From NCBI GenBank assembly GCA_903813345.2, contig CAIIXF020000002.1, positions 2,022,001 to 2,086,000 of the forward strand: a stretch of 64,000 nt of DNA, read 5' to 3'. The stretch comes from Owenia fusiformis (lineage: Eukaryota > Annelida > Polychaeta > Sabellida > Oweniidae). The notes under the pieces were generated by a model. The model was not told the DNA's origin and did no database searches. It saw only the letters and a list, made by a program, of their open reading frames with translations. This document shows, in pieces, positions 26,959-60,129 of this stretch; position 1 is the stretch's first letter, and every line of letters begins with the position of its first letter. The position numbers were made by a program, and so were the translations under genes.

Positions 26959-28575
26959 ATATCGAGCCTTGGTTAATCAAACTCTTAAGTTAAACCTTAT
27001 TTTTATGATATACGACCTTTCCTCCATTCTAATTCGGCCTAACACGAGTAATGAACTTCACTACTAATTGAATGATATCAAGCCTTGTTTAATTAGATTA
27101 GATTTCAACCTTCTCTTTTCATGATGCAACGTTGCCTCCATCCTAAGTCGGCCTAATACGAGTAATGAACTTCACTACTAATTGAATGATATCAAGCCTT
27201 GTTTAATTAGATTAGATTTCAACCTTCTCTTTTCATGATGCAACATAGCCTTCATTCTAAGTCGGCCTAACATGAGTAGTGAGCTTCATTACTAATTGAA
27301 TAATATCAAGCCTTGTTTAATTAGATTAGATTTCAACCTTCTCTTTTCATGATGCAACATAGCCTTCATTCTAAGTCGGCCTTACACTAGTAATGAACTT
27401 CACTACTAATTGAATGATATCAAGCCTTGTTTAATTATACTAGAATACAACCTTCTCTTTTCATGATGCAACATAGCCTTCATTCTAAGTCGGCCTAACA
27501 CGAGTAGTGAGCTTCATTACTAATTGAATAATATCAAGCCTTGCTTAATTAGATTAGATTTCAACCTTCTCTTTTCATGATGCAACATAGCCTTCATTCT
27601 AAGTCGGCCTAACACGAGTAATGAACTTCACTACTAATTGAATGATATCAAGCCTTGTTTAATTAGATTAGATTTCAACCTTCTCTTTTCATGATGCAAC
27701 ATTGCCTTCATTCTAATTCGGTCTAACACGAGTAGTGAGCTTCACTACTAATTGAATGATATCAAGCCTTGTTTAATTAGATTAGATTTCAACCTTCTCT
27801 TTTCATGATGCAACATAGCCTTCATTCTAAGTCGGCCTAACATGAGTAGTGAGCTTCATTACTAATTGAATGATATCAAGCCTTGTTTGATTAGATTAGA
27901 TTTCAACCGTCTATTTTCATTTATGATATGCAACATAGCCTTCATTCTAAGTCGACCTAACACGAGTAGTGAACTTCATTACTAATTGAATGATATCAAG
28001 CCTTGGTTATTGATATTAGATTTTAACCTTCTCTTTTCATGATGCAACATATCCTTCATTCTAAGTCGGCTTAACACGAGTAGTGGGCTTCATTACTAAT
28101 TGAATGATGTGAAGCCTTGTTTAATTAGATTAGATTTCAACCTTCTCTTTTCATTGTGCAACATATCCTTCATTCCAAGTCGGCTTAACACGAGTAGTGG
28201 GCTTCATTACTAATTGAATGATATCAAGCCTTGGTTATTGGTTATTATTATTTCAACCTTCTCCTTTCATGATATGCAGCAACATACATGTAGCCCTCAT
28301 TCTTAGTAGGCCGAAGACATGCGACAAGTAGAGCGTTTTACTACCAATTGCATCATATCTAGCCTTGCTTAATTATTTTCGATTTCAACATTTCTTTCAT
28401 GATCTGCGAAACAACCTCCATTCTTAGAAGGCCTAACACCTGTAACCAGTAGAGCGTTTCACTACCAATTGCATCACACCAAGCCTTGCTTAATTACATT
28501 CGATTTCAACATTTCTTTCCATGATCTGCAACACAACCTCCATTCTTAGTAGGCCTAACACATTTGACAAGGACA
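26959..28575. repeat. 114-bp satellite array, about 14 units
   Basis: The CGGCCTAACACGAGTA block recurs at 27035, 27149, 27263, 27377, 27491, 27605, 27719 and 27833, exactly 114 bases apart. It then recurs at 27953, 28067 and 28181 with one six-base insertion. Three more degenerate units of about 120 bases follow, to about 28575. The inner units differ at only a few positions while the edge units are diverged, which is the usual outcome of unequal exchange. Confidence 0.95.
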
Positions 28576-32248: not shown

Positions 32249-32376
32249 CTTCATTAGGAGACTATACTAGAGACTTCGTTACTAACTCGAGTGATACTTC
32301 ATATCATCAACACGGTATATTACGACAAGAAATTAATGCGAGCTCAAATATAATATACCACTTTGGATATTAAGCA

Positions 32377-33159
32377 ATGGCAGATGGAAGTAACGGTGAT
32401 TCGTTTCCTGAAATAGTTGAATTAAACGTTGGAGGAGTATTTTATACGACATCATTATCTACGCTTATAAAGGAGGATAATTCACTTCTGGGACAAATAT
32501 TTACAGGAAAAGCTAAAAACTATCTTGCGAAAGACTCCAAAGGAAAATATTTTATTGACAGAGATGGTGTGTTGTTTAGATATATTCTGGATTATTTGCG
32601 CAATCAAAAACTAGTTCTCCCGGAAAATTTTCACGAAAAAGACCGATTAAAATCCGAAGCGGAACATTTCTTATTGCCGGGAATGGTTAAATGTATCACG
32701 TCGCAACCAGCAACGAATAATAAAACCCCAAATGGCCCCATTGTGAATAGTGTCTCCAATTCCAAATCGACGACTGATCCATCATCAAAAGCAGGAGTTA
32801 TCACGCTTGGATATAGAGGCACGTTTGCCTTTGGTCGAGATGGCCTTGCAGATGTGAAATTCCGGAAATTGACCCGTATTCTGGTTTCTGGCAAAGTCTC
32901 GTTATGTCGAGAAGTGTTTGGCGAGAGTTTAAACGAGAGTAGAGATCCAGATCGAGGCAGCATTGATAGGTACACATCCCGGTTTTTCCTGAAGCACACC
33001 TTCATGGAGCAAGCTTTTGACCTGTTGTTTGAGAATGGTTATGAATTAAAAGGATGCTGCGGAACCGGGACAAACGGTGCCGGTGAGCTAAAACCCGGCA
33101 TGGATTCAGAAGAAAATAGATGGCAACATTACAATGAATTTATTTTTTACAGACATTGA
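32377..33159 (+). CDS. KCTD12: KCTD8/12/16-family BTB protein, single coding exon
   Basis: This is an intact frame of 260 residues with no intron. Residues about 13-105 form a T1-type BTB/POZ domain, starting VELNVGGVFYTT and including DRDGVLFRYILDYLR. Residues about 138-260 form the H1 domain of the KCTD8/12/16 group, starting GVITLGYRGTFAFGRDG and ending WQHYNEFIFYRH. A polar linker joins them. In vertebrates this group are auxiliary subunits of GABA-B receptors: the BTB domain oligomerises and binds the receptor, and H1 shapes G-protein signalling. That role here is inferred from the family. The protein ends right after H1, so the H2 domain of KCTD8 and KCTD16 is absent and the layout is like KCTD12. 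The start is supported by an in-frame TAA two codons upstream and a G at +4. Vertebrate KCTD12 is also short and encoded in one exon. The symbol means family, not proven one-to-one orthology. Confidence 0.93.
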   Translation: MADGSNGDSFPEIVELNVGGVFYTTSLSTLIKEDNSLLGQIFTGKAKNYLAKDSKGKYFIDRDGVLFRYILDYLRNQKLVLPENFHEKDRLKSEAEHFLLPGMVKCITSQPATNNKTPNGPIVNSVSNSKSTTDPSSKAGVITLGYRGTFAFGRDGLADVKFRKLTRILVSGKVSLCREVFGESLNESRDPDRGSIDRYTSRFFLKHTFMEQAFDLLFENGYELKGCCGTGTNGAGELKPGMDSEENRWQHYNEFIFYRH

Positions 33160-43900: not shown

Positions 43901-46900
43901 TATACATATTTAGTCATCTTTTGGTCCTTTGACTGTTCTTATACCCGATTCTTAAAATCCTGCCAAATACGCCAAATTGCCATGTTTCTATAGGCCTATG
44001 GTCACCTCAATTGATACAATGTAAAATTTTGTGAGATTGGTTGACATGTGTCAGATATATTCTAATCAACGTAACTTTGGAAGACCTTTCCAATGATATA
44101 TCACACTTGGTACCAAATATCTTGGTTTTGGCTGTAGAGGGGGGACGGGACTTATTTGACACCCTGTATATGCCAGCTTTAATGTTTACTCATTGACGTT
44201 TCAGGGTTGGGTGTCTGTCGCCCTGATATTGTGTACGTTAGCCACGCTCACTGAGTCATCAGGTACATATAAAAAATTCCAGCCGTGTAGCAACCGACGG
44301 CACTTGTCTCTAACAGACTGAATGATTTGTCAATCTGCTGTTACAATAGTTCGGAGTATTACTAAAATCAGAGAAATGTAAAATTGTTCAAAAGTAATTT
44401 TTATGATATGGCGAAATTCATGTATTTTCAAAAGTAATTATATGATTGATATGGCAAAAATTCATGCATTTATCAAAAGTAATTATATAATTGATATGGC
44501 GAAATTCAATCATTTTTAAAAGTAACTAAATCATTGATATGGCGAAATGCATGCATTTTTCAAAAGTAATTATATGATTGATATGGCGAAATTCAATCAT
44601 TTTCAAAAGTAACTAAATCATTGATATGGCGAAATTCATGCATTTTCAAAAGTAATTATATCATTGATACGGCGAAATTCAGGCACTTTTAAAAGTTGAA
44701 TTATATCAAAGTAAAACATTAATATTTTTGCCCACTTTTTTTACATTAATATGTATATGTTTGGTTTTAAGTAATAGGTACATCGGTGGCAATCCGTGCG
44801 AAAAACCTTCCGAAATATGCATTATATGCCAGAGAAAATATGCAGGTGTGGTCCGACCCGCCAACAAATAATGAACTTGTGTTGTGGACCATTAAATCAC
44901 CAGGTAACACCCTCGTAGCTGATACTGTATCTCTTGAGTACAAGGCCAGGCCTGGATATTTCCTACGAAGCTTCAACGGGTACCTTAGCATAGAGAATGA
45001 GTCGGCTGGAGCAGTTGACTGGGCACACGCCTCGACTTTCAGGCTGCTAAAAGACGAATATTTCCCGGGGACATATGCAATTGAATCAGCAGCGAATGCA
45101 AAACATGTGCGTCATGTAGGTGGTCGAGGAATGACATGGGTTGTTGAAAATACAGATGTTTTCAAAAACGAAGCAAGCTTCTTTCTCGGTAAGACATGCT
45201 ATATTATTTAGTTCTAAACAAGAATTTCAAAAAGGACTTATTTTTAAGTTGGCCTTTCAAAGAACCTCTATTCTAACTATTAAAAATAACTATTAAAAAT
45301 TGATTCTAGCAATACTCACGTACATAAATCCACTTGTTGAAATTCGATCATCTTGATTTCTTCTGAGAAAATGAGGAATTCAAAAAGGATGCATTGATTT
45401 AATATGGGGACATACACCATTGTCAAATGACTTAGTAACGGGATAACATCATTTATGCCACCATGTTATGTCAATGCACCCTTGCTGAAATTCTATATTT
45501 TCTTAATGCACAATGACATATTGGTGAACATGAAAACACCTACTTAACTTAAACTGTATTATCAAATACACAATGATATCGGTGAAGATAGTGTAAAGTG
45601 CACAAAATTAAACTGTATTATCAAATGCACAATGACATATTAGTGAACATTGGTGAACATGGCGTAAAATACAAATAATTGAACTGGATTATAAAATGCA
45701 CAATGACATATGGATGAACATAGCTTGATTTAGCTGTATTACCAAATGCGCAATGACATATTGACACAATGACATATTACTGTACAATGTCATATTGGTG
45801 AACATAGCAAAAAATACACATAATCGAACTGTATTATAAAATGCACAATGCCATACAGTGGGTAGTGAACGAGAAAAATGACTTTTTATACGGAAAACCA
45901 AATCACCGCTAGTATCCTTACGAAGGACTATATCCTTCTGATCTTTGACCATATGAAAAGGACGAGTCTCGGTTTGGAGAACAGTATCCTAGGCTTATAC
46001 TCTTTTTCATGAAAAATATATAAATATCACTCAAATTGAATTATGAATATCCAAAAGAAAACATTTAAATCTTCAAGATGTACTGTAGAGTATCAAAATT
46101 GTCAAAAGCAGGCGTAATGTGCAGTTACATTAGATTACAGTTAGATTCAATAAAAGACAAGTCTCGTTTTAGAGAGACAAATGTCCATCGGTGTACTGCG
46201 CTAATCATTTCATGAAAAATAAAGAAATACCACCAAAATTAAATTATGGATATTCAAAAGAGGATATTTAAATCTTCAATATGTAAAAATATCAAAATTC
46301 TTCAAACTTGGCGTAACGATGAACTTCGTTCTCCAAACAGAGACTAGTCGTTTCTATTCAGTAACCGGTAACCAAATGTAACCCCATTCATGCAATGGAA
46401 TTGCAGTGAGGAGTGCTCTCAAATTTATGCAATATCCATTTGATAAATTGTAATTGGTCAACACATTTTGATTTAAGATTACCCCATACATGAGAAGTTG
46501 GGGTTGCGATGTAAGTTGGCTTTTAAATTGCTACATATTTCATTTGCTAAATGTTATTAGGTAAAAATATTACGATTTTAGTACCCGAAAGTTACCCCAT
46601 TCATGCAATGGGGGGTTCAGTGCAAGATTTGGGCATCAATATAGCTGGGACAGATCTGATGATATTTACAACACTAAATATCGAAGCCCATGGCGAGATT
46701 CTCGAATGGCAATACTATGCTGAAAACACCAATCCGTTTTGGGCAGGTATATGGAGACCTTTGGTTGACGGTGGATACGAACTAGTCGGAAAGAATGAGA
46801 TTGTTCCCGCTGGGACTGGTGAGTGCAACATCATAGTTTATCATTATGGTGAATATTTGTTTTTGATAAGCTGCCTCGTCCGGCATTCTGAACGTTTTCC

Positions 46901-49900
46901 GTACTATTTAAACGTTGCTTCTGTTTGGCAGTTATCTCTTTCCAAGAGGAGGGATAACCCCATGATTCAATTGATGACATACAATTTCCTCCTTCGCGCA
47001 CCTCCTTTCCCGAAAGTACGTATATTTGTTTACCCTCCATCTTGGTCTTCAAAGTTTTCAAATTGACCTAGTTTTAAAACAATCAATGATCGACTCGCTA
47101 AACCAATCAGCGACGATGTCATCTCAATACAGATTTACATTATAAGCGTATGTCATCTTTAAACCCTAGGTTTCTCCCCCTCTTTCTCTTACCTAGGATA
47201 CTAGATAAATCTCGTGTGCACATGTTATAAAATATTCACTAAATGATGTCCCAAAAACAGAAAAAATCATTTTGCTCATATTATTAAATCATTGCGTCTA
47301 TGGAGTAAAAGCTTATCTGAGAAAGGTAAAACAAAATTGGTAAACGTTTAATTTAGGTAATACCGCAGATTATAATGTGCAATCGCTACCATGTTAATTA
47401 TATTCTTCAAATTGTAAAAAGTGATAATTTAGTTGGTTCTGGATTGGAGGGGAGGATCTTAGACATTATTTATTTTCACGTTAGGTCATACTTTTTGGAT
47501 ATAATATAGGGTATGTTTTTCTCATGACAGGTTTAGACTTAATAAAGTTTGATTTTCTTGCTAGATTTCTTCACAGTTGTTGGTCCTTTTCATTGGCATT
47601 TGTGCTTAGATATCGATTTCATCGTGTTCGAGTCATATATGCTATAAAAGTACATCTGTCGCAGGGGCGGATCTGGGAACCAACAAGGTGGGGGGGCCAA
47701 AGTTCTTGTCTGAGAAAAAAATGTCTGCGCTTGCGCGGAAAATTTATTTAGGCCCCTAAAACCAAAATGTGGGCCCAAATTTTGAAATTTTGAGGCTCAT
47801 TTTCTTCAAAATTTGGCCTAAAATGAAAAAATAAGGCCTTAGAAGGCCCATTTATGACCAAAAAGGCCCACTTTTTGGGGCCACAAGGCCTTTTTTTGCT
47901 CAAAAATTTTTTTGGGCCCAATTTTTTTTTTCTGGGCCCACCCGAGGGGGGGGGGGCCCGGGCCCCTGGGCCCCCCCCCCATATCCGCCAGTGTGTCGTT
48001 TTATCAAAATCTCCTAAAATTTAGTTCAACATGATTTTGATTGAGATGGAATGTGCTTAATATTTTATTAGGCCAATTTTGGTTATGGGAAATTCTTATT
48101 AATCACCATTTGAAACAATTATATTTCTTAAAGGGTGAAAAGTATAATATCAATGTCCTCATCGTCATAATACTTGTACCAGCATAGTGAACTACTTCTA
48201 AGGCGAGTTTGATGAAAACCACAAAGGTATCCTTAACATGATAGAGAATTATTAAACTGCGGTTGGGGTTGAGCTAAGCATATACCAATTTTGCATACAT
48301 AGGGGTAGCGATCGCAACCCCCCCCCTTATAAACAATAAATATAAAACCATGAAAAGAGGAAGAAAAGAGCTTTAAAATGCTTTTTATTTGAACCTTCTA
48401 GCTCAATTTTGAAGTAAGCTGCACCAATATTTGTAAAATTCAAAATAAATCTTATTTTTTGGGTTGTTTATGCTACAATCGCATCGCCCCACCTGACTGG
48501 AAACCAGTTTTTTGGCGATCAAACCCCCCTGACTGAAAGCTGGATACGCCTATGCATGGATTCAATGATTTGCTTATTCAAGCAAGATAAGAAAATGCGT
48601 TTTTAAGAACACCATAATCAACTCCTCTAGCTACAATTCTTAACATTTAAAAATTCTAAAGGACTAACATATCACAAATGAGAACCCCATGTAATGATAC
48701 TTACTCTTTGATGAAACAGCTTTGTTATTAACTCAGCAAAGCTACATGCACGAGAGACTTCTCTCTTTTGTGCATACATGTATATGAACATATTCTACAC
48801 AAGTGATATAAGATATTATACTCAACTGTACGAATTATATGTGCTCGTGTGTGTTATTTAGGTTACCAGTCTTACAAGGTTCCCTTCGGCCAAACAATTA
48901 GCGTCAGACCTGGGGATGTAACAGGAAGACATACGGCAGGTCAAACTAATCTTGCATACGCAAGTTCGGAAAGTGAATATATAACAAAAAATATACAGGA
49001 CAATTCTCTGCCAATTGGGAAAATTATAACTGGGACTAAGCAATGTTGTCGGATGCTTCCTCTAATGGCACTTAGCCAACCAGGTATTAATGTTTGTCTG
49101 TTTGTTTTATGTAAACAATATCAAAATAACTACTTTGATAGATAGTTTAATTATTTTGAGGAAAATAAATATTTTCATGAAATGGAACTGTTTAAATGGA
49201 AATACTATTCTTAGACAATACCGATTGGATTGTCAATTAAAATTCAACTTTAGTCTGGCATTGGGCATGTCGAAACTCGCAATTCGAACCCAGTGCAAAT
49301 TCAGTGGATACGGTTCAGAATGGATTGAATTGATAGATTTCACGGTTCAGAATGGATTGAATTGATAGATTTCACGCCCAACCATCGATAACGTACAGTG
49401 ACAAAAAATAACGTCGTACACATTTTATGTACGTTGTCAATGTAATAACTGATTTGAAGCAAAAGCTATGATGTAGGTTTGATGTACGTTTTAAAAGATT
49501 AATCTGAGGAATACGTAAAGGATTTCACGTTTAATAACATGTGTATTATCTTTAAGATACGTTTAACTTAATAATTACGTTAAAAGAATCTAAAGCAGAG
49601 CTCGATTTTTTTCATGATGAATCTACCCATATAATTGATTGGTATAAAAATGTTGTTTTTTCATATTTTCTTTGACCATTTGCTACCCTGTCTTCTAAGA
49701 GTGTCGAATAGTTTTATGAGAATATGTTTCTCTAAACTACACAATTTAGGAGGGGTGATGACTTAATAAATATTCAATATAAGGTATAATTAAGAAAGTC
49801 AGAAATACACGTTGACTACTTCACTGTACGTTGTCCGTGTAATTGGAATTATTACCACCTTGCCGGGCCAGTTCTAGGGATTTTAGTGCTAGTTTAGAAG

Positions 49901-52872
49901 GCGTTCATTTTACTATATCGACCTGAGAAATGTGTGACGTCATAGTGGCGGTCCATATGGAGTCTAGAATCTAGAATATATTCTGGACCGGCAATTTTTT
50001 TCCCCGGGAAATTAGATGTCGTTCAGTGCGTAAGATTTTCTTGCTATTTCAGCCCTGGTCGTTAACGGTGGTAATAATACTAATAACGTCATTTCTGCGA
50101 GCAATATAGTGAAATATTGGACCTTGGGCCTTCGGCCCTCGGTCCAACATTTCACTATATTGCCCTTAGAAATGACGTTATTGTACTATTCATGAGATGT
50201 TAAAAAAATTCAATATTTTTATTTCAAAATCCATTTTTGGGTTTTTAATGAGTAACAAGTGATGTTAAACGATTGTAGTATCCTTTGTACATTTGATGTT
50301 GAAGATAAGGTAAATGTGATTTTATACGTTTTCTTGAGTACTAATTATTTTATGAAAGTGATGATGTTGTGATATTTGACCATGCTTCCTCTAATGGCAC
50401 TTAGCCAACCAGGTATTAATGTTTGTCTGTTTGTTTTATGTAAACAATATCAAAATAACTACTTTGATAGATAGTTTAATTATTTTGAGGAAAATAAATA
50501 TTTTCATGAAATGGAACTGTTTAAATGGAAATACTATTCTTAGACAATACCGATTGGATTGTCAATTAAAATTCAACTTTAGTCTGGCATTGGGCATGTC
50601 GAAACTCGCAATTCGAACCCAGTGCAAATTCAGTGGATACGGTTCAGAATGGATTGAATTGATAGATTTCACGGTTCAGAATGGATTGAATTGATAGATT
50701 TCACGCCCAACCATCGATAACGTACAGTGACAAAAAATAACGTCGTACACATTTTATGTACGTTGTCAATGTAATAACTGATTTGAAGCAAAAGCTATGA
50801 TGTAGGTTTGATGTACGTTTTAAAAGATTAATCTGAGGAATACGTAAAGGATTTCACGTTTAATAACATGTGTATTATCTTTAAGATACGTTTAACTTAA
50901 TAATTACGTTAAAAGAATCTAAAGCAGAGCTCGATTTTTTTCATGATGAATCTACCCATATAATTGATTGGTATAAAAATGTTGTTTTTTCATATTTTCT
51001 TTGACCATTTGCTACCCTGTCTTCTAAGAGTGTCGAATAGTTTTATGAGAATATGTTTCTCTAAACTACACAATTTAGGAGGGGTGATGACTTAATAAAT
51101 ATTCAATATAAGGTATAATTAAGAAAGTCAGAAATACACGTTGACTACTTCACTGTACGTTGTCCGTGTAATTGGAATTATTACCACCTTGCCGGGCCAG
51201 TTCTAGGGATTTTAGTGCTAGTTTAGAAGGCGTTCATTTTACTATATCGACCTGAGAAATGTGTGACGTCATAGTGGCGGTCCATATGGAGTCTAGAATC
51301 TAGAATATATTCTGGACCGGCAATTTTTTTCCCCGGGAAATTAGATGTCGTTCAGTGCGTAAGATTTTCTTGCTATTTCAGCCCTGGTCGTTAACGGTGG
51401 TAATAATACTAATAACGTCATTTCTGCGAGCAATATAGTGAAATATTGGACCTTGGGCCTTCGGCCCTCGGTCCAACATTTCACTATATTGCCCTTAGAA
51501 ATGACGTTATTGTACTATTCATGAGATGTTAAAAAAATTCAATATTTTTATTTCAAAATCCATTTTTGGGTTTTTAATGAGTAACAAGTGATGTTAAACG
51601 ATTGTAGTATCCTTTGTACATTTGATGTTGAAGATAAGGTAAATGTGATTTTATACGTTTTCTTGAGTACTAATTATTTTATGAAAGTGATGATGTTGTG
51701 ATATTTGACCATAGGTTGATTATTCGGCGTCTGTTCGTTACGTTTTGTTAAATTACACTTTTATGAATCCAGTTTATGCTATATCTTGAAAGTGCAATTA
51801 ATGGTTCAATCAAGTTGAAGTAATACTGTAATTGTTAAGTTTCAATTTTGAATACATCGCCCCCCCCCCCCGAAGTAAGTGTTATAAAAATACCTTTCCT
51901 GCAGAGTTATCTGTGAATTAAGATCTGTAAATTCAAAAGGACAACGTATACTCGAGTTGACAATGTACATTTCTGGTTTCTAAAATTATAGCCAAAACGT
52001 AAACATTTATTAAATCAATCTTTATCAGACCTAGATTGTGTAGTTTAGAGAAACATGTTCTTATAAAAACAGTCGATACTCTCAGGGGCAGGGGAAAAAC
52101 TACACTATTATTTTTTACTTGTCAATATGGTTTTAATAAAAACAACTCTGTTCATTTATATGAAGCATTCCCTAATGAAAACCTTGCCTGCATTGTAAAA
52201 AGAATTGTAATTGATTAACGAAAAGCTCGTTTATCTGTTCAACTAGACATTATATCACATGTAACCTTCGACAACGTACTGTGACAGATAAATCTGAGGA
52301 ATACACAAAGAAGTTCATGTTTAATTTTGTGTATATTCGCTTGGGAAGACTTTGAGCTTTCTGATTATGTTAAAAGATTTTCGAGCAGTGCTCGATTTTT
52401 AGGCGTGTATACATAGCACAGCTGAATCCTATATCTGAATACTTTTCTAGCTGCTCCCATTGTCTACAACACCAAGCATGGTGACGGACCTCTCATGGAA
52501 AGGAAGACATACATAATAACAGATGGTCAATTGGACACATGTGTTGATATCAAGACGGGAATCACTCTCAAATTTGACGAAGATAATTCTGGTTATTCCG
52601 AATACAATATCGTTGTATACACGCGAGGTTTTAGAGATTGCGTTTCGAACACCAGTCATGTGTACCAAGAGACAACGATCACTGGCGACTTCATTGGCTC
52701 ATACAAAACTTGCGATTTTCTGGACTCTAAATCTTTAGAAACGTCAAGTGGTTATGTGACAGGATGTATGTGGAGCTGTGGATGCGAAGCAAATGTTTGC
52801 AGCAAAGGCTACGTCTCAATTTTTGCCAAGACAACGCTGTGTGAGGTATACATCAAATATCAAAATCTATAG
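40974..52872 (+). CDS. Secreted multidomain lectin-like protein (AbfB-like + galactose-binding-like), six exons
   Basis: The spliced model is 40974-40991, 44205-44262, 44778-45188, 46582-46818 (or 46621-46818), 48862-49083 and 52451-52872. All junctions are GT-AG and in frame, giving 1368 bases and 455 residues. The first intron is phase 0 and the other four are phase 1. Residues 1-25 are a signal peptide (start MDLQLIGWVSVALILC). Residues about 74-162 resemble the beta-trefoil of arabinofuranosidase B (AbfB). Residues 163-315 form a beta-rich module seen, as I recall, in other marine invertebrate secreted proteins. Residues 316-455 resemble an F5/8- or fucolectin-type galactose-binding fold ending LCEVYIKY. 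There is no transmembrane segment, so it should be secreted and may bind glycans. No catalytic glycosidase domain is present. The function is inferred, and the exact domain families need profile searches. Long introns hold many transposons. Confidence 0.82.
41261..41428. mobile_element. Hairpin MITE of the GGGCTTCG family, intron 1
   Basis: GATATAATAAAACAAAT, TTTCACTCTA and a central CCCCCGGGCTTCGTG match the better-preserved copy at 54860-55024. The arms pair imperfectly. Confidence 0.75.
41817..42616. mobile_element. 800-bp inverted-repeat element (CTATCACACC family), intron 1
   Basis: It begins CTATCACACCAAACTCTAGT and ends GAACTAGTTTGGTGTGATAG. The interior is rich in GTTC, CGTTC and ACGT motifs and has no long frame. 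A second internal GGTGTGATAG at 42220-42229 suggests that two copies joined or one inserted in another. The same family is at 59120-59525 and 59541-60117. Confidence 0.9.
43552..44168. mobile_element. 617-bp mariner-type MITE, intron 1
   Basis: The left end TACAGGGTGTCAAATAAGTC and its reverse complement at the right continue as inverted repeats for about 28 bases. Further paired blocks lie inward (CCATTGGAAAGATCATCC with GGAAGACCTTTCCAATG). TA flanks both ends, as in Tc1/mariner insertions. There is no transposase frame. Confidence 0.9.
44205..44262 (+). CDS. Exon 2 of the lectin-like gene: signal-peptide core
   Basis: Preceded by TTTCAG and followed by a GTACAT donor, it encodes GWVSVALILCTLATLTESS. 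This is the hydrophobic core and likely cleavage region of a signal peptide. It ends in phase 1 and joins exon 3 in frame. Confidence 0.75.
44389..44700. repeat. ~45-bp tandem repeat, intron 2
   Basis: About seven units of the form CAAAAGTAATTATATGATTG followed by ATATGGCGAAATTCATGCATTTT run up to about 80 bases before exon 3. Confidence 0.9.
44778..45188 (+). CDS. Exon 3 of the lectin-like gene: AbfB-like beta-trefoil
   Basis: The exon encodes residues 26-162. Two internal repeats resemble AbfB repeats: VSLEYKARPGYFLRSFNGYL followed by ASTFRLL, and YAIESAANAKHVRHVGGRGM followed by ASFFL. In fungal and bacterial enzymes this module binds arabinofuranose side chains. Only two recognisable repeats are present where a full trefoil has three, so the divergent residues 30-73 may form the third lobe. 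The exon is phase 1 at both ends, so it can be shuffled as a unit. Confidence 0.8.
45505..45860. repeat. Degenerate tandem repeat, intron 3
   Basis: AATGCACAATGACATATTGG followed by TGAACAT recurs five or six times at irregular spacing of about 60-70 bases. Confidence 0.8.
45962..46350. mobile_element. Inverted-repeat element with internal duplication, intron 3
   Basis: The left end ACGAGTCTCGGTTTGGAGAA pairs with CGTTCTCCAAACAGAGACTA at the right. Inside, a block of about 110 bases (TTCATGAAAAAT to GGCGTAA) occurs twice as a diverged direct repeat, about 200 bases apart. Confidence 0.7.
46381..46620. repeat. Degenerate intronic repeat reaching exon 4
   Basis: ACCCCAT(T/A)CATG recurs at 46381, 46481 and 46594. 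The last unit overlaps the first of two possible exon 4 acceptors. Confidence 0.6.
46582..46818 (+). CDS. Exon 4 of the lectin-like gene: beta-rich module, acceptor uncertain
   Basis: The exon encodes a frame including DLMIFTTLNIEAHG, EWQYYAENTNPFWAGIWRPL and YELVGKNEIVPAG, and ends at a GTGAGT donor in phase 1. Two AG acceptors keep the frame: one before 46582, and one before 46621 after TTCAG. Degenerate intronic repeat units starting ACCCCATTCATGCAATGG at 46381 and again at 46594 run across the first acceptor. This favours the second acceptor and a protein 13 residues shorter. Confidence 0.75.
47662..47993. mobile_element. hAT-like G/C-run MITE, intron 4
   Basis: It starts CAGGGGCGGATCTGGG and ends ATATCCGCCAGTG, and is directly flanked on both sides by TGTCG. 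The interior repeats GGGCCCAAA, AAGGCCCA and GGGGCCACAAGG, and ends in a 13-base G run and a 10-base C run around GGGCCCCTGGG. Confidence 0.85.
48293..48558. mobile_element. Diverged MITE, intron 4
   Basis: CATACATAGGGGTAGCGATC at the left pairs with GGATACGCCTATGCATG at the right. The interior has C runs and CTGACTGGAAACCAG/CTGACTGAAAGC. Confidence 0.55.
48862..49083 (+). CDS. Exon 5 of the lectin-like gene
   Basis: The exon encodes residues 242-315, beginning GYQSYKVPFGQTISVRPGD. This reads as the second half of the exon 4 module. It contains a CC pair (KQCCRML), so a disulfide is possible. The acceptor is TTATTTAG and the donor GTATTA, phase 1 at both ends. Its last 31 bases and donor are repeated at 50382 by the tandem duplication. 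Confidence 0.75.
49053..50381. repeat. 1329-bp tandem duplication, copy 1 (end of exon 5 plus intron 5)
   Basis: The copy begins ATGCTTCCTCTAATGGCACT inside exon 5 and ends GATATTTGACC. It is followed directly by copy 2, and no differences were seen in the parts compared. It contains a 32-base direct duplication at 49311-49376 and the hairpin at 50082-50182. Confidence 0.95.
50082..50182. mobile_element. Hairpin MITE with GGGCCTTCGGCCC centre
   Basis: AATAACGTCATTTCT to AGAAATGACGTTATT pair over about 45 bases on each side, through CAATATAGTGAAAT and ATTTCACTATATTG. The second copy at 51411-51511 comes from the tandem duplication. Confidence 0.9.
50382..51710. repeat. 1329-bp tandem duplication, copy 2
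   Basis: The copy is identical to 49053-50381 wherever compared. It carries the last 31 coding bases of exon 5 and the GTATTA donor but no matching acceptor, so it should be spliced out as intron. Both copies end at GACCAT, and the shared AT at the joint is minimal microhomology. Confidence 0.95.
51411..51511. mobile_element. Second copy of the GGGCCTTCGGCCC hairpin MITE
   Basis: It is the duplicate of 50082-50182, 1329 bases downstream. It is not an independent insertion. Confidence 0.9.
52451..52872 (+). CDS. Exon 6 of the lectin-like gene: C-terminal galactose-binding-like module
   Basis: This terminal exon encodes residues 316-455 and ends in TAG. The pattern ITDGQLDTCVD, then LKFDEDNSGYSEYNIVVYTR, then GYVSIFAKTTLCEVYIKY is like the core and last strand of invertebrate fucolectin-type F5/8 domains, which often end LTLCEVEV. 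A Cys cluster (GCMWSCGCEANVC) lies in the region where those lectins carry disulfides. The match is from memory of the family and is divergent. The last 16 codons also form the start of a 77-bp tandem array. Confidence 0.75.
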
Positions 52873-53245
52873 GTTACAACAAAGGATATTTAGCAATGGT
52901 TGCCAAGACAACACTGTGTTAAGTATACATCAAATATTACAATCCAATAGTTACAACATATGATATTTAGGAATTGTTGCCAAAACAACACTGTGTGAAG
53001 TATACATCAAATATTACAGTCCAATGGTTACAACATATGATTAATAGCAATTGTTGCCAAAACAACACTGTGTGAAGTATACATCAAATATTACAATCCA
53101 ATGGTTACAACATATGATATTTAGCAATTGTTGCCAAAACAACACTGTGTGAGGTATACATAAAATATTAAAATCCTATGGTTACAACAAAGGATATTTA
53201 GCGATCGTTGCCTAGGCAACACTTTGTGAGGTACACTGTATACTT
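52824..53245. repeat. 77-bp tandem array that starts inside the coding sequence
   Basis: TGCCAAGACAACGCTGTGTG at 52824 recurs as TGCCAA(G/A)ACAACACTGTGT at 52901, 52978, 53055, 53132 and, diverged, at 53209. The period is exactly 77 bases. Unit 1 encodes the last 15 residues and stop of the lectin-like protein, and the other units lie in its 3' region. Confidence 0.95.
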
Positions 53246-55024: not shown

Positions 55025-56224
55025 GTCATATTCCCCACTATGTGCGTGATTGGTACATATCCTTCCCATGACTAAAAATAACAAGCGATATCCAACGGCA
55101 CTTAGATGAACATAATAGTTACAAAAGATCAAGACAGTTTCCCTAAGATGGCAAAAACACTAGTACAAGTATATCTTACATGTTCAGGTAAAATTGCTGA
55201 AAAATCTCCAAAGGTAATTTAACGAAAATATGTAAATGATAATTGATGATATTAAATCTCCAAACAAAGGTAAATAACTATCCAGGCTTAGTTGATCGTT
55301 TTATATATCCAGTTTTTTTAATATCTAGGGTAGGATAAAGGGTATCTAGGCAAATATAGGGATCATAACCAGTGTCCCGAATAATTTAGCAATTAAATGA
55401 CCCTTTTTAGCTCCCCCATTGAAGTACGTGTTAACGCCTCTTTACGTTTGAATTTTTGAGGTATTGGTGGCAAACCTACCATTTCCCATTGGATTACATT
55501 GGAATGACGATTTTCAAAAATTCATCAAATTTATCATCAATTTTCGACTTATTGTAATTGAGGAAAAAATTGAGAAAATGTGGAGGTATTGGAAATAAAG
55601 CAAGTTACGTTTCCATCAATATTATAAGTTATTTCATCGCCGATTCAGTAAATAAAAATTCAAAGATAAAGAGGCTTTAACACGTAGTTCAATGGGGGAG
55701 TAAGTTTGCCAAACTTATGGAGGGGAGTACATGTTTGGACTTTTGGGGTTACTTATGTTCATGATAAAGTTTTCGTTTCCTCCTTATCTCGTTTCTCAAT
55801 CGGTTTCCCCATTGTATTATTAATCACCTTTCTGAAGATGAGGTATATCTCTTGCACCAAGGGATATTCAATAATGAACACAGGTACTATGAAATAATCT
55901 TCATAATTTTTTTAGTCATTTATAATTTCACGTTTTGCAGAGCAAGTTTCCAAACTTTGGGATTCAAAAACAATAATTTAAAAGCTAAATGTGTACATAA
56001 CATATACGCCTTGATATGATATAGTAATTAATATGTATGGGGGAAATTAGATTATTTTTAATTTGAACTTCAGCATTATTAACTTAATGGTGAGGAGTGT
56101 TCCAATAACAATTTTTAAATACGCCAGGAGCTGTTTCATGTTAGTTCAGCGTGCATATGTGTGATAACAATATCCTATATTACATAATATTAAATGTTAT
56201 TAATTTTATAGGAACTTTTATTTG
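55025..56224. other. Intergenic region upstream of the His-rich Ly6 gene
   Basis: An inverted pair (TTAGCTCCCCCATTGAAGTACGTGTTAA-type sequence near 55408-55436 and TAACACGTAGTTCAATGGGG near 55678) brackets about 240 bases and may be another MITE. Nothing else is visible. Confidence 0.45.
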
Positions 56225-56230
56225 TATAAA
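56225..56230 (+). promoter_or_regulatory. Candidate TATA box of the His-rich Ly6 gene
   Basis: TATAAA lies 46 bases before the start codon. An initiator-like TCACATT falls about 30 bases downstream, near 56256, leaving a leader of only about a dozen bases. The spacing fits a core promoter, but the leader would be unusually short. Confidence 0.4.
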
Positions 56231-56270
56231 ACAACATCATTATTGATTCGGACAGTCACACATTAGGAAC

Positions 56271-56322
56271 ATGAGTTGGATTTTAGGATTTTCGATCATC
56301 TCTCTGAGTCTGATATCAGTCG
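56271..56322 (+). CDS. Exon 1 of the His-rich Ly6 gene: signal peptide
   Basis: The exon encodes residues 1-17, a short N-terminus followed by a hydrophobic core. It ends at GTAAGA in phase 1. Cleavage is predicted near A20, in exon 2, so that the mature protein starts QCYDC. Confidence 0.8.
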
Positions 56323-58747
56323 GTAAGACATAAGTTTAATTTTATTTTAATGTTTTTTCATTACTCATTAAACAACAATTCTAACATATTATCTAATCTC
56401 TATTATCTAATCTCTTATGTAGCACTCTGCTGATCTTCCTTACCACGAGATTTGATAACGATCGTTCACAAAACGTTAGGAATATATTTCTAAGTTCATA
56501 TTTGTTTATAATCTACATTTAAGTACAGTCAAACAATGTTGAAAAGAGGCTTTAGGACACCTTATTATATCTTATCGTATTTGAATTTAATCAATTATTT
56601 CCATGGCAAAATGTAGAATCCTTCAAGACATCCATTCAAGATTTCTTCTTCAAATTTGCACCATTTACTTCTTATACTGATGTTCAGGTATAAAATAATG
56701 TTCAAAATATCATGGATCATATTTCAAAAAATTGTTTCATTTCAGTGGGGGCACAATGTTACGATTGTAACTATTTACCCGGAACAAATGGTGGATTCCC
56801 TGCATGTGGGCTTGCAACGGCTGCAGACACCGCTCTCGTATCACAAGTTACGTGCTCATCAAATAGATGTTTCATTCGTCAGGATTCTAATGGATGTAAG
56901 TTTTGAATTATCATTGCGCCATATCTATGAGTAAAAACCTTTTATTAATTGTCTTGATCAAATCACCTGATTTATGTTGATTTAAATACATTTTATCTCA
57001 TAGAATTTTATATGTGTTGTTTAAGAATTCGCTAAGGATAACTATGCTATTTATAATTTTTATTTGTTTCGAATAAAAATATCGTTTTTCCCGAGCCGCA
57101 TATTGTAAATACAATAAAGTAGAATCTGCATGAGTGCATGTTTTCTTCAATATTTGTAGTTATATACCGCGGTTGTGGCGACGTTTCGCATCTTCCATTT
57201 GGTGCAAACACCGCGCTCCAATGTGCCACCCAGGCCGGTTCTGTGTGGTATTTCTGCACAGGGGCACTTTGTAACTCTGGCCAGTTCACTACAGTTTGCC
57301 CAACTTCTTCGACCATATCGGCCCCAGCTACTGTTGCACCAACTACAGTTGTTCCTGTAACCGTTGCGACAACTGTCGCCACATCCGGTGAGTGGGAAAT
57401 AATCCTTTGTGTTCTACAGATACCAGCCAAATTGCTCATAGTAGTGCTAGCATATTAACAACCTTTTATCAGTTGAGTTGCGTTAACTACAAATCACTTA
57501 ACCAGAATATGAGTGTTTTTAGAATTTCAAACACTGCAAAGGACATTTTTATTGGTAATGTACACAGAGCATTGCATTCTATTATGATCGATCTGTGTTG
57601 AAAATGTGACTTTCACCTGAAGAAACTAGTATGTCAAAGTGTATTATGTGTAAATCTTTTATTTTCAGTGAATTGCTACGACTGCACATTCCATCCATAC
57701 AGCTACAGCGGGTACGTGCATCATCAGACTCCTTCTGCGTGCGCAGCTCCTAGCACTGTCAATGGCGTTGCTCAGACGCCCTGCTCCGAAGGACGTTGTT
57801 TCGTTCGTCGTGACGCAAACGGGGGTACGACATTTTTCCTAGTCCCATAAAACTATCGATCTAACAGTTTTCAATAAATCTCGTATCATCAAATGGGACA
57901 AGATTTAATGACTTTCAGAATGTCAATGCAATCGGTTGCAAATAAAAAAAGAAAAATTCGAAAATTAGCATGAAAGTTGTTACAATTATAGATTTATGTG
58001 CATAGAGTGCCTCAGACTTTATCTAAACGATTTATTGCAGATATTTACCGTGGATGTGGCAATGTCGCCAACCTTCCATTCGGGGCAAACGTCAACCTAC
58101 AATGCGCCACACAAGCGGGGTCAGTTTGGTATTTCTGTTCCAGCAACCTCTGCAACAGTGTTAGTCTCTCCTCAGTTTGTCCCACCACCAGTCATGTGAG
58201 TCACACGCATCACAGTCATCATCATGGACATAGCCACGGACACAACAGCCATGTCCACTCGCACCATGCCCATGCGCCTAGTTACCCGACGCACCAACAT
58301 TCACACGCAACATACAACAACCATCATCACCATCAACATGCGCACGCACACAGCAATACGCATGCGCATGGAACCTACAACAACCATCATCACCATCAAC
58401 ATGCGCACGCACACAGCAATACGCATGCGCATGGAACATTCAACAACCACTATCACCATTCACATTCCCATAGTAACGTAGTACACGCTCCAGCACCTGC
58501 ACACACAAGCAATACTGGTATAATATACGTCAACGGAGGGACTTACCCGAACCTTGCCAATTACGTCGGACTTCCAACACATGGACAGTCATTCGTCGGC
58601 CATGGGAGTCAAGCAAGCCATTCGCATTCTATCCCGAGCAGCAATGGAATCGTTCATGTGCCCGCTGGTCAAACATACCCCAATCTCGCCAATTACGTCG
58701 CCGCCCCTGCCCACAACCAACCAGTTTTTGGACATGGGAAGAAATAA
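56271..58747 (+). CDS. Secreted histidine-rich tandem Ly6/uPAR-like protein, five exons
   Basis: The spliced model is 56271-56322, 56746-56895, 57160-57387, 57669-57824 and 58041-58747. All introns are GT-AG and phase 1, and together they give 1293 bases and 430 residues. Residues 1-20 are a signal peptide (MSWILGFSIISLSLISVGA). Two Ly6/uPAR-like three-finger domains follow, at about 21-118 and 145-242. Each begins C-Y-D-C and ends with the family hallmark LCN. A Thr/Val/Pro-rich stretch (119-144), possibly O-glycosylated, separates them. Residues 247-350 hold 43 His. Residues 351-430 carry two copies of a motif with TYPNLANYV. There is no GPI-type hydrophobic tail, so it should be secreted. 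Likely roles, by analogy with other His-rich secreted proteins, are divalent metal binding, mineral or matrix binding, or adhesion. None is shown by the sequence. Confidence 0.88.
56746..56895 (+). CDS. Exon 2 of the His-rich Ly6 gene: first half of Ly6 domain 1
   Basis: It follows TTTCAG and ends at GTAAGT. It encodes VGAQCYDCNYLPGTN, then FPACG and VTCSSNRCFIRQDSNG. The CxxC start and Cys spacing fit the first finger of a Ly6/uPAR fold. It is homologous to exon 4, which has CYDC and GRCFVRRDANG. Confidence 0.85.
57160..57387 (+). CDS. Exon 3 of the His-rich Ly6 gene: second half of Ly6 domain 1 plus linker
   Basis: The exon encodes IYRGCGDVSHLPFGAN, LQCATQAGSVWYFC and ALCNSG, then a Thr/Val/Ala/Pro-rich tail of about 26 residues. 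It is homologous to the start of exon 5 at both protein and DNA level. The intron cuts the domain at the same place in both copies (before IYRGCG). Confidence 0.85.
57669..57824 (+). CDS. Exon 4 of the His-rich Ly6 gene: first half of Ly6 domain 2
   Basis: It follows TTTTCAG and ends at GTACGA in phase 1. It encodes VNCYDCTFHPYSYSGY, ACAAPSTVNG and CSEGRCFVRRDANG. Compared with exon 2 it carries extra Tyr and His residues after the CYDC motif. Confidence 0.85.
58041..58747 (+). CDS. Exon 5 of the His-rich Ly6 gene: end of Ly6 domain 2, His-rich tail, YPNLANYV repeats
   Basis: The exon opens with IYRGCGNVANLPFGAN and WYFCSSNLCNS, which closes Ly6 domain 2. The tail then alternates His with Ser, Gly, Ala and Asn, including HHHHQHAHAHSNTHAHG twice. 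The last 80 residues contain two copies of a motif of the form GI(I/V)xVxxGxTYPNLANYV, each followed by PxHxQ and GHG. The stop is TAA after GKK. I see no AATAAA close behind it. Confidence 0.88.
58305..58440 (+). repeat. 63-bp coding tandem repeat in the His-rich tail
   Basis: A 63-base unit (21 codons, TYNNHHHHQ then AHAHSNTHAHG) is present in two near-identical copies, with a diverged third copy starting TFNNHYHHSHSHS. Near identity at DNA level suggests recent unequal exchange, so length polymorphism is likely. Confidence 0.85.
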
Positions 58748-59119
58748 GACTCTATCACGGCAACATTTTTAATGTTTCATGGTGGAAGGACTGCTTTTCA
58801 AATCATGATCATGTCCCGAGTCAATTCCTCACGACATGATAAATTAGAAAACCAAATACCATAAATATTTGCCTGAGAGTAAATAAGTGTGACATTACGT
58901 GAATCTTGATTCATAATTTTTTGACTTGAGGAATGACGGTCCATCACAAAACCATACTTTATAATACAGTATTGATTTTTTATCTATATATTGTAGACTA
59001 TATAAAAAATTAAATATATCCATGATATACATTATTATTTTTTATTAGAAACAGTATTATATGCTGTTATATGCTTCGCAGCCATACAAAGATTATAAAA
59101 CAACACCTTACCCCCCCCC
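58748..59119. other. 3' flank of the His-rich Ly6 gene
   Basis: This is probably 3' UTR at first. I see no canonical AATAAA, only variants such as AATAAG near 58883. The region is AT-rich. Confidence 0.35.
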
Positions 59120-59525
59120 CTATCACACCAAACTAATCCGCAACCGTTCTTTCCAGTCATAGTCCTACGAAAAAGTCGTAAAACGGGCTAAATCTGGCTG
59201 TGGTAGGGAAACATGTCTAAAATAATTAGCTACTTCGTTCATTAACAGTCTTCAATACGTCCATCTCATTTGCAGTTCGTTCAGATCGCACCACGTCGGT
59301 ATGCAGACGTATTGCAATCGATATCCGATTGCACGACGTTGTAATACATGTCCCTACTAGGGAGAACATTTTAAGCATGTTCTAAGTTCTAGAGGACCTA
59401 CCCGTTCGAGTACGTCCGATGAAGTTTGTAAATAGAACCCAAATGGTTCTAAGTACGTCCAGTCCGTTCGTACACAGTTGAAGCCCGTTTTCGAGAACGT
59501 AGTCAGGACTAGTTCGGTGTGATAG
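59120..59525. mobile_element. CTATCACACC-family element, copy A
   Basis: It begins CTATCACACCAAACTAATCC and ends GACTAGTTCGGTGTGATAG. Both ends align with the ends of the element at 41817-42616, but the interior is shorter by about half (internal deletion). Confidence 0.9.
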
Positions 59526-59540
59526 TATAGGGCTACCCTA

Positions 59541-60117
59541 CTATCACACCAAACTAGTTCTCACTACGTTCTCGAAAACGGGCTTAAACTGTGCACGAAC
59601 GGATTTGACGTACTAAGAACCCACTAAGAACCGTTTGGGATCTGTTTACAAACTTCATGAAACTACTAGAACGAGTAGGTCCTCCAGCACTTAGAGCATG
59701 CTCGACATTTTCTGGTGATCATCAAAACGTTGCCGAATCGGTTTTAAACTGTGTGCGAACTGAATGAATGTAGCTACATTGTACAACGTTCTACGGTCTG
59801 TTTACGAACTTCATGAACTTTCCCGGACGGGGTATGTGATTTAGAATTTTGAATTGATTCAAAATTCGATGGCAACCATACCGTTCTGTAATCAGGTCAT
59901 GATTACCTTCTAGACTAAGGGACGGTTTATACTACGTTGCACACCGACGTGGTGCGACCTGAACGAACTTCGAACGTGATGGACGTATTGAAGACTGTTT
60001 ATGAACGAAGTAGCTAATTATTTTAGACATATATCCCGACCGCAGCCAGATCGAGCCCGTTCTACGACATTTTCGTAGGACTGGCAAGAACGGGTAAGAA
60101 CTAGTTTGGTGTGATAG
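59541..60117. mobile_element. CTATCACACC-family element, copy B, inverted relative to A
   Basis: It begins CTATCACACCAAACTAGTTC and ends AAGAACTAGTTTGGTGTGATAG. Its sequence is the reverse complement of the family, so copies A and B lie as a large inverted pair with 15 bases between them. Confidence 0.9.
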
Positions 60118-60129
60118 GGGGGTTAGAGA

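Follow-up and report, generated by a model that had tools for sequence, protein, structure and literature searches.

In this study, we found that the annelid Owenia fusiformis carries a five-exon gene which apparently encodes a secreted protein joining two tandem domains, probably but not certainly of the Ly6/uPAR (LU) family, to a long histidine-rich tail. The gene lies on the + strand at 56271-58747 of the 64,000-nucleotide stretch of DNA analysed here (the window). The unusual part of the protein is the tail, not the tandem LU domains. A sequence-only reading of the same DNA had proposed this secreted architecture of two LU domains and a His-rich tail, and both the gene structure and the constraint seen at codon level support it.

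The five-exon, 430-residue reconstruction of that reading stands as drawn. All four introns (423, 264, 281, and 216 bp, in order) are GT-AG and of phase 1, and the joined exons give a single 1293-nt frame of 430 codons. The exons are as follows, with a slash marking the splice point in donor motifs:

56271..56322, + strand: exon 1, start codon and a hydrophobic, signal-peptide-like N-terminus (residues 1-17); donor TCG/GTAAGA, phase 1
56746..56895, + strand: exon 2, first half of LU domain 1 (Cys 1-5), with GT-AG, phase-1 introns on each side; homologous to exon 4
57160..57387, + strand: exon 3, remainder of LU domain 1, with LCN and one more Cys, then a 27-residue spacer
57669..57824, + strand: exon 4, first half of LU domain 2; donor GGG/GTACGA
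58041..58747, + strand: exon 5, remainder of LU domain 2, followed by the His-rich tail and the stop codon

The N-terminus resembles a signal peptide by hydropathy alone, with a Kyte-Doolittle maximum of 2.47 in a 15-residue window from residue 4. The spacer at the end of exon 3 consists of Thr, Val, Ala, Ser, and Pro and corresponds to the Thr-rich spacer described earlier. The concern that the His-rich exon might belong to another frame or transcript is answered at the DNA level, as the second half of LU domain 2 and the tail share a single open frame (57992-58747). A TATA-like motif, TGTATAAAAC (56223..56232, + strand), stands ~40 bp upstream of the start codon, and we take it to be a possible promoter. 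No AATAAA occurs from the stop codon to 59300; the interval has only ATTAAA (59009) and two copies of TATAAA (59001 and 59094). At the sequence level, comparisons within the gene itself make the five-exon model believable.

The assignment of the two domains to the LU family is probable, not certain, and it draws on exon plan, profile matches, and cysteine pattern. The exon plan is that of LU genes, with a signal exon of its own, two exons for each domain, and phase-1 introns throughout, and in domains 1 and 2 alike the inner intron falls between Cys 5 and Cys 6, an interval which is presumably loop 2. In a review of the family, LU genes are described as having a separate signal exon, two exons per domain, and phase-1 introns, with the inner intron at the tip of loop 2 (PMC6600238), and a three-exon plan is described for human and mouse genes (PMC4839075). 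None of the four Pfam matches of the whole protein at E up to 10 lies above its curated cut-off: Quiver (E 4.7e-5, 24.7 bits against 27.3), DUF7622 (E 0.0012, 19.3 bits against 28.2), DUF753 (E 0.006, 17.7 bits against 24.7), and the unrelated and weak PFF1_TM (E 1.6). Quiver is an LU-type family according to its Pfam model description, and we assume the same of DUF753 and DUF7622. These three families are matched again by each domain alone, at E 0.00093 to 0.019. Among ten decoys in which the cysteines were fixed in place and the remaining residues shuffled, none matches any of the three, and three have some other weak match.

Each domain contains 10 Cys, with spacings of 2-12-15-4-13-15-10-4-8 in domain 1 and 2-18-13-4-13-15-10-4-8 in domain 2. 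The standard LU domain is described as having 10 Cys bonded 1-5, 2-3, 4-6, 7-8, and 9-10, with an Asn after the tenth (PMC6600238). The order in the Owenia protein differs from this, in that LCN contains the ninth Cys and the tenth follows 8 residues later in both domains. Of the earlier description of two three-finger-type domains each ending in LCN, the LCN motif is borne out in both domains, the LU exon plan makes the family probable, and the tenth Cys lies beyond the supposed end. Most simply, the sequence can be read as loss of one Cys from the usual 8/9 pair and gain of another after LCN, both before the domains duplicated. Eroded Cys patterns are reported within the family, and the N-terminal LU domains of human multi-LU proteins are nonstandard too, being without the 7-8 bond (PMC6600238). 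Sequence searches of the PDB gave no convincing relative for the domains or the tail: domain 1 alone had two weak, unrelated matches (best E 0.14), the two-domain profile had two weak matches, to a Geopilin domain 2 protein (best E 0.28), and the tail had none at E up to 1.

An alignment of domain 1 (exons 2-3) with domain 2 (exons 4-5) spans 101 columns and shows 53% identity. Between exons 2 and 4 (44 codons) pS is 0.94 and pN 0.36, with 18, 15, and 32 mismatches at codon positions 1, 2, and 3. Exon 3 and the start of exon 5 share 73% amino acid identity over 48 codons (pS 0.81, pN 0.19; 13, 6, and 30 mismatches at the three positions). The tail contains repeated sequence as well, within and beyond its His-rich block:

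58193..58504, + strand: His-rich block, residues 247-350, 43 His among 104 residues
58511..58744, + strand: C-terminus of the tail, two copies of a ~32-residue unit (TYPNLANYV ... GHG), beginning at residues 353 and 396

The two copies of the C-terminal unit, compared over 32 codons, have pS 0.90 and pN 0.23, with 9, 7, and 22 mismatches at positions 1, 2, and 3. The domain pair and this unit diverge chiefly at the third position of codons, so selection appears to have maintained the reading frame in each domain and also in the tail past the His block; inside the block such support is weaker.

No further LU copies were seen in the 64-kb window outside the LU exons of this gene, the best domain match elsewhere (E 0.69) being to another frame of the tail. 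In viral contigs, 12 stretches matched the search pattern and four loci passed; all four match one 36-residue stretch at 42-44% identity while keeping 1 of its 3 Cys, and we took them (L001-L004) as chance. In bacterial and archaeal genome contigs, 29 stretches matched the pattern and none was confirmed, and the tail motif YPNLANYV, written as degenerate DNA with Leu as CTN only, had no match in the viral contigs. Since the collections searched are viral, bacterial, and archaeal, these misses say nothing about animals.

Elsewhere in the window, scans with Rfam at gathering scores and for tRNA genes returned nothing. Upstream of the gene lie a KCTD8/12/16-type ORF (32374-33159, Pfam 1.4e-54) and, in an animal-looking gene, an exon-like ORF (44771-45208) with an AbfB (arabinofuranosidase B) domain at 24.5 bits against a Pfam cut-off of 22.8. 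Downstream is a fold-back element of ~1 kb (59115-60122), perhaps a non-autonomous transposon, with arms at 59115-59161/60076-60122 (85%) and 59161-59305/59938-60082 (90%) and an inner hairpin at 59445-59621. We saw no bearing of the KCTD-type ORF, the AbfB-like exon, or the fold-back element on the function of the protein. A 1331-nt exact tandem repeat with a period of 1329 occupies 49053-51712 (copies 49053-50383 and 50382-51712) and stems either from duplication in the very recent past or from misassembly. A Cys-containing ORF of 148 residues (52426-52872), with no Pfam family above cut-off, may be another exon belonging to the region at 44-53 kb, and a 77-bp tandem array (52817-53233) overlaps its end. 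Further upstream, a 114-bp tandem array (27021-28273, 10.9 copies, 91% matches) is followed by a 121-bp array with a similar-looking unit (28298-28563).

The sequence-only reading had counted 43 His in residues 247-350, and our recount is identical. The next-highest His count is 12, among the 12 listed of the 18 best non-overlapping 104-codon stretches in the six frames of the window. His makes up 54 of the 430 residues of the whole protein (12.6%). The tail from residue 241 to 430 holds 50 His in 190 residues, with 27 HxH and 11 HH, and contains no Asp, Glu, or Arg and only 2 Lys. The net charge computed for it falls from +47.3 at pH 5 through +26.4 at pH 6 to +1.5 at pH 8. On the basis of this composition, the tail (~185 residues) is presumed to be disordered. 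A GPI anchor signal was not seen, the best 15-residue hydropathy after residue 240 being 0.35 and the C-terminal end being FGHGKK.

Recent duplication has produced part of the His block, whose precise length may thus be a matter of chance. A 63-bp (21-residue) unit is arrayed in tandem at 58309-58459, where two 21-codon copies are identical at 20 of 21 codons, with a single synonymous difference, and a third, diverged copy (17 codons) has pS 0.73 and pN 0.37. The near identity of the two copies favours an alternative in which the protein is an LU receptor-modulator whose tail grew by slippage and has little function. However, His is encoded throughout the protein by a mixture of codons (35 CAT and 19 CAC, with no pure triplet run), and the codon constraint on the C-terminal unit argues against a tail of little function.

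A variant of this alternative is a gene with two isoforms, one of which stops at the border between LU domain 2 and the tail. Outside the model, a 5' splice motif, CAT/GTGAGT, lies at this border (58193-58201, + strand; GTGAGT at 58196..58201). By a rough consensus table, the donor after 58195 scores 4.74, which is the second-highest score in 56261-58760 and exceeds three of the four model donors. Joined to an acceptor-like site at 58474, whose score of 1.17 equals that of the model exon 2 acceptor, it would bring a stop codon directly after residue 247 and leave a two-LU protein without the tail. The strong border donor may therefore allow a tail-less isoform, although its phase is 0, whereas all four model introns are of phase 1. 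By the same table, the exon 4 donor (after 57824) is weak at 0.86, while a non-model donor after 57711 scores 3.29, and the exon 5 acceptor (before 58041) is not among the best 14 listed, which do include one before 58144 that the model does not use. In this part the model is nevertheless supported by the homology of exon 4 to exon 2 and of exon 5 to exon 3. We regard a slippage-grown tail of little function, or a two-isoform gene of this kind, as unlikely.

The reading we favour, tentatively and at slightly less than an even chance, is that the protein is secreted and either cross-links a matrix or forms a metal-loaded part of one. Its LU domains would dock, and its tail would be a soluble cation inside acidic granules and, outside them, a neutral metal ligand or a phase-separating segment. 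Its two LU domains and Thr-rich spacer are followed by a tail placed where GPI-anchored relatives have the anchor signal. The LU domains would fold and dock on a partner, as the general use of LU domains in protein-protein contacts suggests (PMC6600238). In acidic secretory granules, the tail would be strongly positive and soluble. Upon release near pH 8 the charge would be lost, and the imidazoles could act as ligands of Zn, Cu, or some other metal, or the tail could phase-separate; charge loss together with either event would cross-link or concentrate the protein in an extracellular material such as cuticle, tube, shell matrix, mucus, or glue. The sequence-only reading likewise suggested metal binding, perhaps in shell, tube, cuticle, or adhesive secretion, and there as here this is inference.

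Parallels exist for the separate parts of this mechanism. Phase separation of squid beak proteins is reported to be switched by His deprotonation (PMC6884462), and the byssal preCols and mfp-4 are described as having His-rich parts able to cross-link with metal ions (PMC12621633). Against the metal reading, the latter paper reports that these metals were not detected in the sabellariid worm cement that it studied itself. Also counting against the favoured reading are the profile matches below cut-off, the nonstandard Cys order, the failure of PDB searches to give a convincing relative, the recently duplicated part of the His block, the strong donor at the tail border, and the two weak splice sites of the model. 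The squid histidine-rich beak proteins and the Owenia protein have His-rich low-complexity sequence in common; GHG occurs twice in the Owenia protein, but the GHGxY repeats of the beak proteins do not occur in it. To our knowledge, the beak proteins are without LU domains.

The general kind, a secreted Cys-rich domain followed by a His-rich tail, is already known from perisilin and the mussel EP protein, and both bear on a second alternative. Here the tail would not cross-link through metal ions but would interact with a mineral as it forms (silica, carbonate, or iron oxide), and the Cys-rich domains would act as a disulphide-stabilised scaffold. Some perisilins of glass sponges have the same layout, a Cys-rich domain and then a flexible His-rich C-terminus, and the protein is located in silica; their domain, however, is CAP-like with 12 Cys, their tail has 59 residues with 14-15 His as against 50 in 190 here, and many perisilins are described as having no His-rich end (PMC10772126). 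The mussel EP and EP-like proteins are likewise extracellular and His-rich (14.3% as against 12.6% here), and two EP-like proteins are found in the shell, but they have a C1q domain where the Owenia protein has LU domains (PMC4517812). Neither the CAP family nor C1q is among the four Pfam matches of the Owenia protein at E up to 10. Repetitive low-complexity regions are said to be common in molluscan shell matrix proteins (PMC4897951), which also favours a mineral matrix. On the other hand, the silica-promoting domain of glassin is described as rich in both His and Asp (PMC10772126), whereas the Owenia tail has no acidic residue. A mineral-matrix role is, in our view, not likely.

A third alternative is non-structural, namely a soluble metal carrier of haemolymph or mucus, or a metal-sequestering defence protein. 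The abundant His, the almost neutral tail at pH 7.4-8, the apparent secretion, and the unseen anchor signal would all suit such a protein. No carrier fold is found among its Pfam matches, however, and the use of LU domains in protein contacts points away from a carrier, so that we consider this reading improbable.

Tandem LU domains are ordinary, and the earlier remark that Ly6 proteins are usually single-domain, while right, should be read with this in mind. Published counts are three LU domains in uPAR, two in LYPD3, and two (human) or four (mouse) in CD177, together with a zebrafish cluster with two and some Drosophila proteins with 2 to 44 (PMC6600238, PMC4839075). The Owenia protein resembles these multi-LU proteins (uPAR, LYPD3/C4.4A, CD177, and those of zebrafish and Drosophila) in exon plan, tandem Cys-rich domains, and the CN end, and differs from them in its long His-rich tail, in having LCN at the ninth Cys, and in showing no GPI signal. 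LU domains are reviewed as seldom joined to unrelated sequence, with GPIHBP1, SP-10, and the TGF-beta receptors as examples (PMC6600238). GPIHBP1 and SP-10, like the Owenia protein with its presumed disorder, combine an LU domain with a disordered segment, but theirs is N-terminal (acidic in GPIHBP1, where it is reported to speed partner binding) and that of the Owenia protein is C-terminal and His-rich (PMC6600238). The titles and opening lines of abstracts among the literature matches listed describe no LU protein with a His-rich tail. A survey of the Ly6 family of Fasciola gigantica exists (PMC8763315), and annotated yet unpublished relatives of the tandem LU and His-tail protein may well exist.

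In summary, two LU domains with a His-rich tail would add a case to the few in which LU domains are joined to unrelated sequence. The protein would also link receptor-type LU domains to the biomaterials built on His and metal, and this predicts that its assembly depends on pH and metal. More broadly, and with considerable doubt, it may represent a class of extracellular material proteins in which tandem LU domains serve as disulphide-stable docking modules and the His tail as a pH switch, possibly with splicing at the border choosing between a soluble and a cross-linking form. If so, the LU domain, reviewed as rare beside unrelated sequence, would have been recruited as a module of structural materials.
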